The notes: generated by a model from the sequence alone, not told the origin. Counted from the stretch's first letter, positions 3,636-19,204 are shown. The stretch: DNA of 49,247 bases from Anaerolineales bacterium (GCA_025450445.1 JANWHN010000087.1:1-49247); one strand, 5' to 3'. Made by a program: numbers and translations.

Positions 3636-3763
3636 AGTTTCCTTTCATGTTGTTAACGTATTTCATCGTAGCTTAGTTCCTTCTCATTGACCAACGAATT
3701 AATCGTAGATAAATGCACCGCTAAAACAGCGCCCGATTGTGGAAAACGATACAATGGAAAACG

Positions 3764-4543
3764 ATGAGCCAATCACTCAATAAACTAGAGGCGCGCTTGC
3801 AGCGCCTGATCGAAGAGGGAACAGCACGGCTCTTCGCATCCCAAGATACTCGCGGACTCCTGGCTTCCCGGCTAATCGAAGCCATGCAAGCCGAGGTGAC
3901 TTTCGGCCAGGCAGACCAGCTGCTAGCACCCAGCACGTACACTATTCATTCTAATAGCGAGCACGCCGCGGCACTCAAATCCAACCAAGTGCTATTGGAC
4001 GAACTCTCGACCGCACTGAAAAGGGCCGCGTCCGAATCCGGGATCCAGCTTGCCGGGGAGCCAGTGCTGCATATTGCTCCGGCAGAAGAATTGCAAGCCG
4101 GCGAATTCCGCGTGCGCTGCGCGGGCTTGGGTGAAAGGCTGCAGAGCACGCAGTCGCTGCGGACGAATGGAACACCCCTCCAGCATCAGATCCCTAACGG
4201 CGCATTTTTTATCGTGGGCGGCGCCCAGATCTTCCAGCTCAAACTGCCAATCGTCAATATCGGGCGCAAGAATGATAATCACCTCGTCGTCGAAAACCCG
4301 CAGATCTCGCGCCGCCACGCCCAATTGCGCGCAATTGCCGGCAGCTATCACTTCTTCGATCTTGGCTCGACTGGCGGATCGCAGATCAACGGCGTAGACG
4401 TAAAGAGCGCAGCGCTGCTGACCGGGGACGTGATCAGCCTGGCCGGTGTTGTCCCATTGATCTATAGCCAGGATGAAACGAAGACCGTTTCAGTGACGCA
4501 GGAATACAAACCCGGAGAAAACGGCCGCACATCCACTTTTTAA
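3764..4543 (+). CDS. DUF3662 (FhaA N-terminal-like) plus FHA domain protein
   Basis: MSQSLNKLEARLQRLIEEGTARLF... and VNIGRKNDNHLVVENPQISRRHAQLRA...GSTGGSQING FHA core; ORF 3737 trimmed to ATG 3764. Confidence 0.85.
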   Translation: MSQSLNKLEARLQRLIEEGTARLFASQDTRGLLASRLIEAMQAEVTFGQADQLLAPSTYTIHSNSEHAAALKSNQVLLDELSTALKRAASESGIQLAGEPVLHIAPAEELQAGEFRVRCAGLGERLQSTQSLRTNGTPLQHQIPNGAFFIVGGAQIFQLKLPIVNIGRKNDNHLVVENPQISRRHAQLRAIAGSYHFFDLGSTGGSQINGVDVKSAALLTGDVISLAGVVPLIYSQDETKTVSVTQEYKPGENGRTSTF

Positions 4544-4551
4544 TAGTGTGA

Positions 4552-5001
4552 ATGGAAAATTTCAGCGCGTATCTTTTATTGGCCCTGCGCCTGCTTCTGG
4601 CGCTGGCACTTTACGCATTCCTCGGTTGGACCTTTTACATCATCTGGCGCGACCTGCGCCAACAGGCTGAAAGCCTGACGCATCTGCGAGTGCCACCGTT
4701 ATTGATCTCCCAAATTGGCGAAAATGGCCTTGGCGAACAATTGCGCTTCACCGCGCCCGAGATCGTGATCGGCAGGCACCCGAACTGCGAGTGGGTGCTG
4801 GCAAACGAAACCGTTTCGACCAAACATGCGCGGCTGCTATTCCATCATGACCAATGGTGGCTGGAAGACCTGCATTCCAGGAACGGCACGTTTCTCAACG
4901 AACAAATTCTGACTTCACCGGTCGTCCTGGCAAATGACGATAGAGTACGATGTGGTCAGGTGAATTTTGACATTCGGTTTGAAGAATTGAGCAAGAAATG
5001 A
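4552..5001 (+). CDS. Membrane-anchored FHA domain protein (FhaB-like)
   Basis: One TM then IVIGRHPNCEWVLANETVSTKHARLLF...LEDLHSRNGTFLN. Confidence 0.9.
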   Translation: MENFSAYLLLALRLLLALALYAFLGWTFYIIWRDLRQQAESLTHLRVPPLLISQIGENGLGEQLRFTAPEIVIGRHPNCEWVLANETVSTKHARLLFHHDQWWLEDLHSRNGTFLNEQILTSPVVLANDDRVRCGQVNFDIRFEELSKK

Positions 5002-5864
5002 ACAAGAAACCGGTCCTAGGGATCATTGGCGGCTCCGGCATTTATTCGATGCCGGGCCTCAAAGCTGTCGAAGAAAAGAAGGTCAGCACTCCGTTCGGCG
5101 CGCCAAGCTCGCCAGTCGTGATTGGCACGCTTTCGGGAACGCGGGTCGCCTTCCTCGCCCGACATGGCGTAGGCCACACGATCCCGCCGACAATGGTGAA
5201 CTATCGCGCCAACATTTACGCACTCAAATCGCTGGGCTTGCGCTTCGTAGCCGCGGTCAGCGCCTGCGGCTCGCTCCGCGAAGATTACGCCCCAGGGCAC
5301 GTCGTCATTCCCGACCAGCTAGTCGATGCGACCAGCCGCCGGGAGCGCTCCTATTTTGATCATGTCGGATTGGTTGCCCATGTTGGCGTAGCCGAACCTT
5401 TTTGCAATGATTTTGCCGCCCAGCTTTTCCAAGCCTGTGAGAAGGCCGGCGGAAAGGTACATGAAGGCGGAACTTACATCACCGTTGAAGGACCGCGATT
5501 TTCCACTAGAGCCGAATCGAATAGTTTCCGCGCGTCGGGCTATTCGATCATTGGCATGACCACCTCGCCCGAAGCATTCCTGGCCCGCGAAGCCGAGCTG
5601 TGTTACGCGGTGATGGCGCATGTGACCGATTACGACGTGTGGCACGAAGAGCCGGTAAGCGTCGATATGGTCATGAGCACAATGCATGAGAACACCGAAC
5701 TGGCTCAAGGGGCGATACGCCATTTGGCTGAGGACCTGAATGAAAAGCAACAATGTGATTGCGACACCGCATTGGCGAATGCCCTTGTGACCAACCGCAA
5801 GAACGTTTCTAAGACCGTGCGCAAAAAACTAGGAATTCTCGTCGACAAATATTTACCGAAATGA
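4998..5864 (+). CDS. mtnP: S-methyl-5'-thioadenosine phosphorylase
   Basis: LGIIGGSGIYSMPGL...FLARHGVGHTIPPTMVNYRANIYALKSLG...TYITVEGPRFSTRAES; 4-nt overlaps on both sides. Confidence 0.93.
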   Translation: MNKKPVLGIIGGSGIYSMPGLKAVEEKKVSTPFGAPSSPVVIGTLSGTRVAFLARHGVGHTIPPTMVNYRANIYALKSLGLRFVAAVSACGSLREDYAPGHVVIPDQLVDATSRRERSYFDHVGLVAHVGVAEPFCNDFAAQLFQACEKAGGKVHEGGTYITVEGPRFSTRAESNSFRASGYSIIGMTTSPEAFLAREAELCYAVMAHVTDYDVWHEEPVSVDMVMSTMHENTELAQGAIRHLAEDLNEKQQCDCDTALANALVTNRKNVSKTVRKKLGILVDKYLPK

Positions 5865-8503
5865 ACGTCGCGCAAGCTATTCGGCGGTGGATGCCCGCCA
5901 GCAACTCCGCCAGCTTGATAAGGCTGGCGGGTTTGTTTCTGGGGTTTTACGCGCTGGCGCTCACTCTGGCGCCGGCTGTGCGCGACCGCTCCTTCGATGG
6001 CTTGAGCGAGCTGAATTGGGGACATTGGTTTGGGATGCTGATGTGGGCGGTGTCCTTTTATTTTCTGGATCGGCGCATCCGCAAAGAGTTGCCGAATCGC
6101 GATGTTTTCATCGTTCCATTGGTCGCCATACTTTCTGGCTGGGGACTGCTAACGATCTGGCGACTGACGCCGTTCTTCGGCTTTCGCCAAACATTATGGC
6201 TCGGGCTTGGTACTGCTTTTTTTATCTTAGCCTTGCGCTACAAAAACGAGATCCTGAACGCACTGCGCCGCTATAAATACCTTTGGCTGCTTGCCGGATT
6301 TTTACTGACCGCCCTAACTTTTCTCTTTGGCACCAACCCATCCGGCATTGGGCCGGACCTGTGGTTGGGATGCTGCGGAATTTATTTCCAGCCATCTGAG
6401 CCCCTGAAATTACTGTTGATCATTTACCTTGCAGCATATCTCGCAGATCGTCAACCGCTGATGTCGGGGCTCGTGCCGCTGCTTGCCCCAACAGTGTTGA
6501 TGGCTGGGATCGCGTTGATGCTGTTGCTCGTGCAACGCGATCTTGGAACCGCCTGGGTTTTTGTTTTTATCTACACGATCTTGATCTATGTTGCCTCAGG
6601 CAAACGGCGCGTTCTCGTTTCAAGTTTGCTGACCCTCGCGCTTGCGCTGATCGCCGGGTACTTTTTAGTGGGGCTTGTCCACGCCCGAATTGATTCGTGG
6701 ATCAACCCATGGCTCGACCCGAGCGGAAGTTCGTATCAGATCGTGCAAGGCTTGCTGGCGCTGGCCGCTGGCGGCATTTTTGGGCGCGGGCCGGGGCTGG
6801 GCAGCCCAGGGTTTGTGCCGGTCTCGCACAGCGATTTTATTTTCACATCCATCGCCGAAGAAAGCGGTCTCATTGGTGCGATCGCGCTGCTGTTGATCGT
6901 TTTACTGCTCAGCCTACGCGCCCTGCGCATTTCATTACTGGCCCGAGACGCTTACCAACGCTATCTGGCCGTCGGGGTGTGCGCGTATTTAGCGAGCCAA
7001 AGCCTGCTCATCGTGGGGGGCAACATCCGCATGCTTCCGCTGACCGGGGTAACGCTGCCATTTGTTTCTTATGGCGGCTCGTCCCTGCTCACCTCTTTTG
7101 TCGCCCTGCTGCTGCTGTGTTTGGTGAGCAACGAAACCGTGAACCGTGCCACCCCGGTCTCGCGGACGCGCACCACACAAGGCGTTGGCGCGGGACTATT
7201 GGTCGCGTTCGGCATTGCCGCGCTGATCTGCGGCTGGTGGGCCGTCACCCGCGGGCCAGACCTGCTGACCCGCAACGACAATGCCCGGCGCTCGCTCTCG
7301 GATCGTTACGTGCCGCGCGGTGCGTTCCTCGATCGCAACGGCCAATTGTTGAGCGAAACAATTGGTGAGGGAGGCAACTACCAACGCCAGTATCTGCATC
7401 CGGAGCTGAGCAGCGTGCTGGGTTACACGCACCCAAATTTCGGCCAGGCAGGTTTTGAGTCCGGCCTGGATCCTATTTTGCGCGGCGAAGAATTTCAGCC
7501 TGCGCTGGATCTATGGTTGAACCATGTACTGTACGGCCAGCCCTCGCCGGGCTTGGATATTCGCCTGAGCCTTGACCTGAAGTTGGAGCAACAAGCGGCT
7601 GAGCTGCTGGCAAACGAGGCTGGCGCAGCAGTCGTGTTGAACGCCAGCAACGGCGAAATCCTGGGCATGATTTCGCAACCAACATTCGACTCCAACAATC
7701 TCAATGAGAATTGGGAGACGCTGTTGGATTCTTCCGGCTCGCCATTATTGAATCGCGCAACACAAGGCGCCTATCCCACCGGAACGGCGCTCGGTCCTTT
7801 CCTGCTCGCTGCCGCCCGCGCCCAAAGCACAATCCCCGATCCGCCGGCCGAGTTGAGTTTTGCTGTTGACGATTTGCAACTGGAGTGCGTCCGCCAGCCG
7901 CTGGACGCGGCGGTGTGGAGCGAACTGGTCGCGGCGGCCTGCCCCGGCGCGCTGGCCGAACTAGGGATCGCGCTGGGTGGTGAAAATTTATTAGCTTTGT
8001 TCGATGATCTCGGCTTTTATACGGCGCCTGCTCTCGACCTCGATTTGCGCGCCCAAACCATGCCGAGCACGCTGGAACGCCCGGGCAATGCCGGAGTTGG
8101 CCGGGACGAATTGCGCATCAGCCCATTGCAAATGGCGCTGGCCGCCGCGGCACTCACCCATTACGGGCAGATGCCCGCGCCCCAGATCGCGCTGGAAGTC
8201 GAAACCGTTGAAGGCGGCTGGCGCCAGTTGCAGCCAGAGGGAGAGCCGGTCCAAGCGCTGAACAATACGTTGGCGCAAGCGACTGCGCAGAATTTGGCCA
8301 GCGCAACCCTCCCGATCTGGGAAGTTACCGGGCGGGCTATTGGCGATGACGGGCAGATCTACATTTGGTACTTGGCTGGCACTCTGTCGGAGCAAACCGA
8401 AGAAGGCGAGGCTCGTTCAGTTGTAATTTTGCTGGAAAGCGACAAGCCTGCCTTGGCGCTTTCCATCGGGCAAGCCCTATTGCTGGCGGCGATGGGTCAG
8501 TAA
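5861..8503 (+). CDS. SEDS (FtsW/RodA) polymerase fused to a degenerate class B penicillin-binding protein module
   Basis: N-terminal ~430 aa SEDS core (FQPSEPLKL, QRDLGTAWVF, GRGPGLGSPGFVPVSHSDFIFTSIAEESG), then a second TM and PBP module (RGAFLDRNGQLLSE... NRATQGAYPTGTALG). Confidence 0.92.
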   Translation: MNVAQAIRRWMPASNSASLIRLAGLFLGFYALALTLAPAVRDRSFDGLSELNWGHWFGMLMWAVSFYFLDRRIRKELPNRDVFIVPLVAILSGWGLLTIWRLTPFFGFRQTLWLGLGTAFFILALRYKNEILNALRRYKYLWLLAGFLLTALTFLFGTNPSGIGPDLWLGCCGIYFQPSEPLKLLLIIYLAAYLADRQPLMSGLVPLLAPTVLMAGIALMLLLVQRDLGTAWVFVFIYTILIYVASGKRRVLVSSLLTLALALIAGYFLVGLVHARIDSWINPWLDPSGSSYQIVQGLLALAAGGIFGRGPGLGSPGFVPVSHSDFIFTSIAEESGLIGAIALLLIVLLLSLRALRISLLARDAYQRYLAVGVCAYLASQSLLIVGGNIRMLPLTGVTLPFVSYGGSSLLTSFVALLLLCLVSNETVNRATPVSRTRTTQGVGAGLLVAFGIAALICGWWAVTRGPDLLTRNDNARRSLSDRYVPRGAFLDRNGQLLSETIGEGGNYQRQYLHPELSSVLGYTHPNFGQAGFESGLDPILRGEEFQPALDLWLNHVLYGQPSPGLDIRLSLDLKLEQQAAELLANEAGAAVVLNASNGEILGMISQPTFDSNNLNENWETLLDSSGSPLLNRATQGAYPTGTALGPFLLAAARAQSTIPDPPAELSFAVDDLQLECVRQPLDAAVWSELVAAACPGALAELGIALGGENLLALFDDLGFYTAPALDLDLRAQTMPSTLERPGNAGVGRDELRISPLQMALAAAALTHYGQMPAPQIALEVETVEGGWRQLQPEGEPVQALNNTLAQATAQNLASATLPIWEVTGRAIGDDGQIYIWYLAGTLSEQTEEGEARSVVILLESDKPALALSIGQALLLAAMGQ

Positions 8504-18355: not shown

Positions 18356-19204
18356 TTACAGTTTGCGGAGCACCCCGCGCACCAGCTTTGTCAACTTGGG
18401 GACCAGCACTTGGCCAGCTTCCAGCACTTCAGCGTGCGTGGTCTCAGTGGCTCCATCTAAATTTGCTTTGTTGCTGATGCCCGAAACGCCCAGCACCCGC
18501 GTCCCACCGTGGCGGGCCACCGTGGCTTCGGGCACTGTAGACATCCCGACCGCGTCCACCCCGGCCGCCCGCAAAAAGCGCAGGTCGGCGGGTGTCTCGA
18601 AGCTGGGGCCGGCCAAACAGCAATAGACGCCTTCGCGTAAGCCAAGTTTTTCTTCTGCCGCCACCTGGCGGGCGAGGCTTTGTAAATCTCGATCGTAAAC
18701 CTTGCTCATATCCGGAAAGCGGGGGCCTAATTCGTCGAGATTGGGTCCGCGCAGTGGATTCTGTCCAGCCATGCCGATTAGATTCAAATGATCGGTGAGC
18801 ATCATCAAATCGCCGGGTTCAAAATCGGGATGGACAGCTCCCGCTGCGTTGGTGACGATCAGGATCTCGATGCCCAATTGCTGCATCACCCTCACCGGTA
18901 GGCCCAGACGCGGCATGTCGTAACCCTCGTAGTAATGGGTGCGTCCCTGCATCACAGCGACGGTTTGCTCCTCAAGAACTCCTAGCACCAATTGCCCGGC
19001 GTGGCCCTCAACGCCAGAAACCGGCCATCCGAGTATTTTTGCATATGGAACCACATCGGCTTTTTCAACCGACTCGGCCAGTGGACCCAAACCAGAACCC
19101 AAAATTAGCCCGATGCGGGGCCTGTGTTTGCTTTGTTTTTTGACTTGTTGGGCTGCTTTTTGTATCTCTTCTAAGGTGAGGAAGTCACCCATCAACTGCT
19201 CCAA
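18356..19204 (-). CDS. Purine-nucleoside phosphorylase
   Basis: IGLILGSGLGPLAESVE; VMQGRTHYYEGYDM; LIVTNAAGAVHPDFEPGDLMMLTDHLNL; VGMSTVPEATVARH. Confidence 0.95.
   Translation of the reverse strand: MEQLMGDFLTLEEIQKAAQQVKKQSKHRPRIGLILGSGLGPLAESVEKADVVPYAKILGWPVSGVEGHAGQLVLGVLEEQTVAVMQGRTHYYEGYDMPRLGLPVRVMQQLGIEILIVTNAAGAVHPDFEPGDLMMLTDHLNLIGMAGQNPLRGPNLDELGPRFPDMSKVYDRDLQSLARQVAAEEKLGLREGVYCCLAGPSFETPADLRFLRAAGVDAVGMSTVPEATVARHGGTRVLGVSGISNKANLDGATETTHAEVLEAGQVLVPKLTKLVRGVLRKL

Follow-up and report, generated by a model that had tools for sequence, protein, structure and literature searches.

The analysed window is a stretch of 49,247 nucleotides from an Anaerolineales bacterium (GCA_025450445.1, JANWHN010000087.1:1-49247). 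It contains a closely packed gene string that encodes an FhaA-like protein, an FhaB-like protein, a phosphorylase and, as the last gene, a fusion of a SEDS glycosyltransferase with a class B PBP (bPBP) (Table 1). The product of the fhaB-like gene scores 79 bits against the NF049868 FhaB profile, for which the cut-off is 125. In most loci of the class, the gene directly preceding that for SEDS is the phosphorylase gene; in the window the two genes overlap by 4 bases, with the ATG of the fusion gene sharing the sequence ATGA with the stop codon of the phosphorylase gene. A second phosphorylase homologue is encoded at 18356-19204 on the minus strand. The four genes of the string lie back to back, too close to accommodate a further gene, and no genes for the PstP phosphatase or a PASTA kinase are present in this locus. 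The FHA genes hint at control through phospho-threonine, by analogy with the mycobacterial locus (PMC6554272, PMC11898655).

Table 1. Genes, domains and key residues of the SEDS-PBP locus (positions in the window).
Feature	Position	Strand	Residues	Evidence
fhaA-like gene (FhaA_N + FHA)	3737..4543	+		PF12401, 5.6e-15; PF00498, 9.5e-15; conserved in the locus
fhaB-like gene (membrane helix + FHA)	4552..5001	+		PF00498, 1.7e-19
Purine nucleoside/MTA phosphorylase family gene	4998..5864	+		PF01048, 1.2e-46
SEDS-pseudoPBP fusion gene	5861..8503	+	880 aa	Single intact open frame
SEDS glycosyltransferase domain	6170..7138	+	aa 104-426	PF01098, E 1.9e-69
Asp325 of HSDF, equivalent of the RodA catalytic Asp	6833..6835	+	325	Aligned with FRHTDF of Thermus RodA
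PBP transmembrane anchor	7166..7249	+	aa 436-463	AlphaFold2 helix
Linker and pedestal (PBP dimerisation) region	7250..7528	+	aa 464-556	Conservation counts; PF21922 in relatives
Transpeptidase-fold pseudo-domain	7529..8500	+	aa 557-880	PF00905; Foldseek
Lost SxxK: TALG	7784..7795	+	aa 642-645	Alignment to intact orthologues
Cys676, first of the Cys pair	7886..7888	+	676	Co-conservation in dead rows
Lost SxN: ACP	7937..7945	+	aa 693-695	Alignment to intact orthologues
Cys694, second of the Cys pair	7940..7942	+	694	Middle residue of the ancestral SCN
Lost KTG: VTGR	8324..8335	+	aa 822-825	Alignment to intact orthologues

In agreement with the preliminary description of this DNA, which had recognised one long ORF combining SEDS and class B PBP, the frame is open throughout and both Pfam domains are matched. 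The SEDS domain scores 234.8 bits against PF01098 (cut-off, 26.4), and PF00905 (transpeptidase) is matched at aa 588-813 with an E-value of 7.6e-14. The PbpA dimerisation domain, PF21922, aligns with aa 486-554 at 24.7 bits, just below the 27-bit cut-off, and is matched at E 0.001 in 40 of the 44 fused relatives. An AlphaFold2 model of the fusion, built on an alignment of these 44 relatives (pLDDT 91.1, pTM 0.83), runs from the last SEDS helix (aa 407-428) through a short linker (aa 429-435) into the PBP anchor helix. A Foldseek search started with the PBP part identifies PbpA-type proteins from Eggerthella, Atopobium and M. tuberculosis as the top PDB matches, with a TM-score of about 0.8 of the target; for example, the M. 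tuberculosis PbpA entry 3un7 is matched at 0.79, and 3upo and the PbpA-like 4mnr and 4n1x are also top-ranked. The PBP part of the fusion thus possesses the transpeptidase fold together with the N-terminal anchor and the dimerisation region, yet it lacks the SxxK, SxN and KTG motifs.

The alignment with intact orthologues equates TALG, ACP and VTGR of the fusion with S-x-x-K, S-x-N and K-T-G, so that the degeneracy of all three transpeptidase motifs, noted previously, is borne out; the positions given for these segments and for HSDF of the SEDS domain (aa 323-326, 6827-6838) match exactly. VTGR does occupy the place of KTG, as proposed, but is no vestige of it, because the first position of the motif is freely variable among family members (H, F, W, V, Y, T and others). 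Relatives were compared at the same syntenic locus, using overlapping sets of the 60 nearest genomes, 120 genomes from the class and 151 from the phylum along with GTDB contigs. In a set of 81 loci sampled across Chloroflexota, 25 encode SxxK, SxN and KTG, 55 have lost all three (hereafter, dead) and one is partial. "Partial010" labels produced by a regular expression proved to be chance S-x-N matches and were dropped from the motif classes. The Ser of SxxK is present in 25/25 active-type loci and in 3/56 others (the 55 dead ones and the partial one), and the Lys in 25/25 and 0/56; the Ser and the Asn of SxN are each found in 25/25 active-type loci, the Asn in 1/56 others; and the Lys of KTG, present in 25/25 active-type loci, is replaced elsewhere by a mixture of residues. 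This contrast between the active-type and the other loci is far beyond chance. All three motifs are absent from every PBP seen at the locus in the order to which the window belongs. This order is Anaerolineales-like, with one relative annotated as Leptolinea. Close homologues with intact motifs were looked for and none was found, the intact orthologues being confined to families elsewhere in the class and to the phylum's other classes. Judging from these alignments, the PBP part of the fusion is almost certainly dead as a transpeptidase.

In other classes of Chloroflexota, the FhaA-FhaB-(phosphorylase)-SEDS-PBP string includes intact, separate PBPs. In a rooted tree of concatenated SEDS and PBP sequences, with the active-site columns removed and outgroups from the phylum, four intact families of the same class (f48, f54, f44 and f20) diverge successively before a single clade of 54 dead loci (SH-aLRT 98), which takes in all dead loci of the window's order along with several further families. 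A SEDS-only tree with outgroups recovers the same clade (94, not starred). The loss of the transpeptidase active site has a single main origin, early in the class. The extra losses implied by a first SEDS-only tree, made without phylum outgroups and with f20 placed near the dead families, were discarded once the outgroups and the PBP sequences yielded one dead clade. Two further losses lie apart from the main clade, one in f66 outside the class (fused, dead) and one in f20 (genome G065). The fused, dead SEDS-PBP seen outside the class (L168 3470-6130, G184) probably represents an independent loss. Within a single genus of f20, the PBP of G127 (L112 5203-6633) is intact, with GSAFK, SCN and KTGTA, and the G065 protein (L114 3128-4267) has GEELE at the SxxK position, lacks the SxN segment and retains KTGTA; this may be an apparent case of loss in progress.

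Among the 25 intact loci, 24 are split and one is fused; among the 55 dead loci, 40 are fused and 15 are split, although the independent pairs are too few for a formal test of the association between fusion and loss. The fusion state changes seven times on the tree, six of these within dead loci, and a split dead locus of family f46 groups as the sister of fused dead ones; therefore, inactivation preceded most fusions. Fusion is, as far as the tree topology indicates, a separate, later and repeated event relative to motif loss. Fusion and motif loss, for which the preliminary description proposed a survey of co-variation, are distinct events, and fusion is not a mark of the dead state given that both dead-but-split and fused-but-intact loci occur. 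A causal role of fusion in motif loss was considered and rejected in view of the frequent split dead loci and of one fused intact locus (L169 3656-6556, G299), which is located next to fhaA-fhaB outside the window's class and encodes intact SxxK, SSN and KTG. One genome with a split dead pair bears a second SEDS-PBP fusion (L071 1457-4231, G056:C441) that keeps SxxK and SDN; this possible contaminant, with its very long branch and a contig that ends before KTG, was left out of the analysis. At four loci (L126 and L127 of f39, L065 and L069 of f12), a SEDS gene is present with no recognisable PBP nearby; it is possible that the PBP has been wholly lost or has become too divergent.

The SEDS moiety retains the QPSExxK and GGSS motifs and the catalytic Asp of its family, and the model of a relative from the same order matches RodA (6pl5_A) with a TM-score of 0.85 of the target. 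The column of Asp325 contains Asp in 70/70 dead, 7/7 intact and 18/18 other SEDS proteins. Across the 70 SEDS proteins of the dead lineage, Q177, P178, E180, D227, D325, E333, G336 and others are invariant or nearly so; the Gln, Pro and Glu of QPSE, the Asp of QRDLG, the Glu and Gly of EExG, and the PLTG and YGG blocks show this in the dead loci as they do in the intact ones.

In the PBP moiety, constraint is unevenly distributed. Conservation in dead versus intact rows, the latter numbering only 25 and differing from the former in taxonomic spread, is 0.54 versus 0.52 in the pedestal, 0.44 versus 0.68 in the SxxK helix, 0.38 versus 0.52 in aa 661-746 and 0.39 versus 0.66 in the C-terminal 65 positions; of the 93 pedestal positions, 16 are at least 90% conserved in dead rows and 11 in intact rows. 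The same tendency is seen in pairs matched for a SEDS identity of 0.4-0.5, where the identity in dead versus intact pairs is 0.35 versus 0.40 in the pedestal, 0.20 versus 0.40 in the middle of the transpeptidase domain and 0.26 versus 0.50 at its end, with only 10 intact pairs drawn from 6 rows of the class. Compared with active relatives, the pedestal is therefore the best-kept stretch of the PBP moiety, and the catalytic cleft has been released from constraint. The sole positions of aa 661-746 that are at least 90% conserved in dead rows are Cys676 and Cys694, which occur together in each of the 37 dead rows that have a residue in both columns; we read this pair as a predicted disulfide that still holds the dead domain together. 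Both cysteines are missing from shortened families, and the helical subdomain is reduced or lost in several dead families. For example, in family f11 the transpeptidase domain is shorter, and its model (pLDDT 87.4) contains the pedestal and the sheet, with most of the helices that separate the SxxK from the SPLQ helix gone and the similarity to PbpA down to about 0.65; in this model, the catalytic cleft is physically dismantled. Taken as a whole, a clade-wide, ancient loss of three motifs, with the frame, the fold, the pedestal and the SEDS catalytic residues all kept, strongly supports the earlier proposal that the PBP moiety is a pseudoenzyme.

A search of the genome for a separate active-type bPBP, suggested in the preliminary description, identifies an intact PBP2 in the string mreB-mreC-PBP2-minC, with RodA downstream (contig C67), and a further PBP with intact motifs (C31); in addition, the genome encodes two GT51 proteins and a murD-ftsW-murG string (C105). 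Fourteen near-complete genomes of the dead clade contain 6-9 PF00905 matches each, some of these being fragments of one protein and the dead PBP being included where detected. Given the other intact PBPs in the genome, cross-linking need not depend on the fusion protein.

The activation model for SEDS-bPBP pairs locates the signal at the pedestal/ECL4 interface and accounts for the need for some bPBPs whose catalysis is dispensable; in B. subtilis, a catalytically inactive PBP2B is reported to support division (PMC8078798). Lipid II is still polymerised by engineered RodA-PBP2 fusions when mecillinam is present, an activity that requires RodA D262 (PMC6207328). The dispensability of bPBP catalysis is not general because S. 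aureus PBP1 needs its own transpeptidase activity (PMC9426605). The fusion locus is best read as the Chloroflexota counterpart of the actinobacterial fhaA-fhaB-pstP-rodA-pbpA-pknA-pknB locus (PMC6554272, PMC11898655), with the PbpA partner now non-catalytic. The two share the linkage of FhaA, FhaB, SEDS and a PbpA-type PBP as well as the PbpA-like fold; unlike the actinobacterial locus, the one described here has no kinase or phosphatase gene between the others, includes the MTA/purine phosphorylase gene, and encodes a PBP that is dead and fused. Under this reading, the ancestor would have had a separate, active PbpA-type PBP encoded next to the SEDS gene; the active site would have been lost once, early in the class, with the gene retained and, in several descendant lineages, later fused to the SEDS gene. 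The SEDS domain would polymerise lipid II with Asp325 as the catalytic residue, the PBP anchor and pedestal would contact it and hold or switch its active state, and the dead transpeptidase fold would serve as a rigid extracellular body. Cross-linking would be performed in trans by the other intact PBPs of the cell, and FhaA and FhaB may tie the polymerase to Thr-phosphorylation signalling. Retention of the PBP part for SEDS activation, as first suggested in the preliminary description, would fit both the pattern of constraint and the published genetics of activation (PMC8078798, PMC6207328): the loss of catalysis alongside retention of the pedestal and the SEDS site, frequently within a single chain, matches the prediction of the activation model for an activator-only PBP.

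Conversion of an ancestral RodA-PbpA pair into a SEDS polymerase with a non-catalytic regulatory PBP subunit appears reasonably probable as a full mechanism, and is put no higher because similar traces would be expected from a pure scaffold. Indeed, a PBP part that did no more than stabilise or localise the SEDS protein should also have a conserved pedestal. A dead PBP that acts as a localisation or assembly scaffold for SEDS or for an active PBP, with no allosteric action, would be compatible with a conserved pedestal and Cys pair in an otherwise released domain and with the FHA proteins encoded in the same gene string. However, the part that has been kept best is the one in contact with SEDS in the known complexes (PMC8078798), and the distal domain, where a binding site for an outside partner would be expected, shows the lowest conservation and has been trimmed in several families, so that we regard a scaffold as a rather unlikely explanation. 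The transpeptidase fold could also have acquired a new ligand-binding or sensor function, e.g., muropeptide binding, as in other pseudoenzymes, and its retention at high model confidence, in a reading frame that is open across dozens of species, is in line with this. Against such a function, which we consider improbable, stand the lack of newly conserved surface or pocket residues, with the two cysteines alone in aa 661-746, and the loss of that very subdomain in several families.

Most dead loci encode a Cys next to the former SxN site, which raises the question of whether peptides are still cross-linked or hydrolysed with a different catalytic residue. This is very improbable in view of the near-disappearance of the SxxK Ser and the complete disappearance of its Lys; an alternative S..K anywhere in the transpeptidase part, considered and rejected as a candidate, occurs in only 6/56 rows at scattered positions, and the Cys is paired with a second one, both being absent in the shortened families. 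As for a sequencing error, a mis-assembly or a pseudogene decaying in one genome, the source is a MAG that is 68% complete, and one genome of the same genus (L064 6113-6162, G004) has a frame break within the transpeptidase part, which, in a MAG, may itself be an assembly error. Nevertheless, the same losses are shared by 10/10 other genomes of the genus, with the frame open over its full length in 9/10, and by many other families; the conserved open frames of the relatives rule out a local error or pseudogene, leaving it a negligible probability.

The SEDS-bPBP complexes, PbpA, the fha-rodA-pbpA linkage and experimentally inactivated bPBPs are already known. The RodA-PBP2 and FtsW-FtsI complexes (6pl5, 8tj3, 8bh1) resemble the fusion in that a SEDS polymerase is combined with the anchor, pedestal and transpeptidase fold of a bPBP; the fusion differs from them in being a single chain without SxxK, SxN and KTG. 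The engineered RodA-PBP2 fusion (PMC6207328) likewise joins SEDS and PBP in one chain via a linker, but is artificial, with a GGGS linker and an active PBP. The B. subtilis PBP2B-type bPBPs (PMC8078798) offer a parallel to the role proposed here, of a bPBP that would act as a structural activator with cross-linking done by another PBP; theirs are intact and disabled by mutation or drug, whereas here the activity was lost by evolution and clade-wide. Neither natural fusions of SEDS with a bPBP nor class B PBPs inactive by nature were found in the open-access literature searched, an earlier mention of fusions in a subscription journal being possible, and a phage-protein library contains no match to the fusion. 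New relative to the open literature searched is a clade-wide, naturally inactivated class B PBP that is kept as a SEDS partner and has been repeatedly fused to it.

The class B PBP transpeptidase is the usual target of penicillin, and whether the essential role of bPBPs is cross-linking or switching on SEDS has so far been argued from mutants and drugs. The proteins described here provide a natural test of the view that the essential job of the partner is switching the polymerase on: evolution removed the cross-linking chemistry but kept the partner, and therefore natural proteins allow a direct test of both the dispensability of catalysis and the need for the pedestal. In vitro assays and structural studies of polymerisation without transpeptidase side reactions could also benefit from single-chain, non-crosslinking SEDS-PBP proteins, and the G127/G065 pair may capture motif loss under way. 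There is about an even chance that this clade of Anaerolineae-type Chloroflexota has, as a whole, turned a penicillin-binding protein into a dedicated activator of the polymerase. Its SEDS synthase would then be beta-lactam-blind, with the pedestal as the functional unit, the transpeptidase fold as a shrinking remnant, and cross-linking fully delegated to other PBPs; if so, evolution would have produced a separation-of-function form of the SEDS-bPBP machine.
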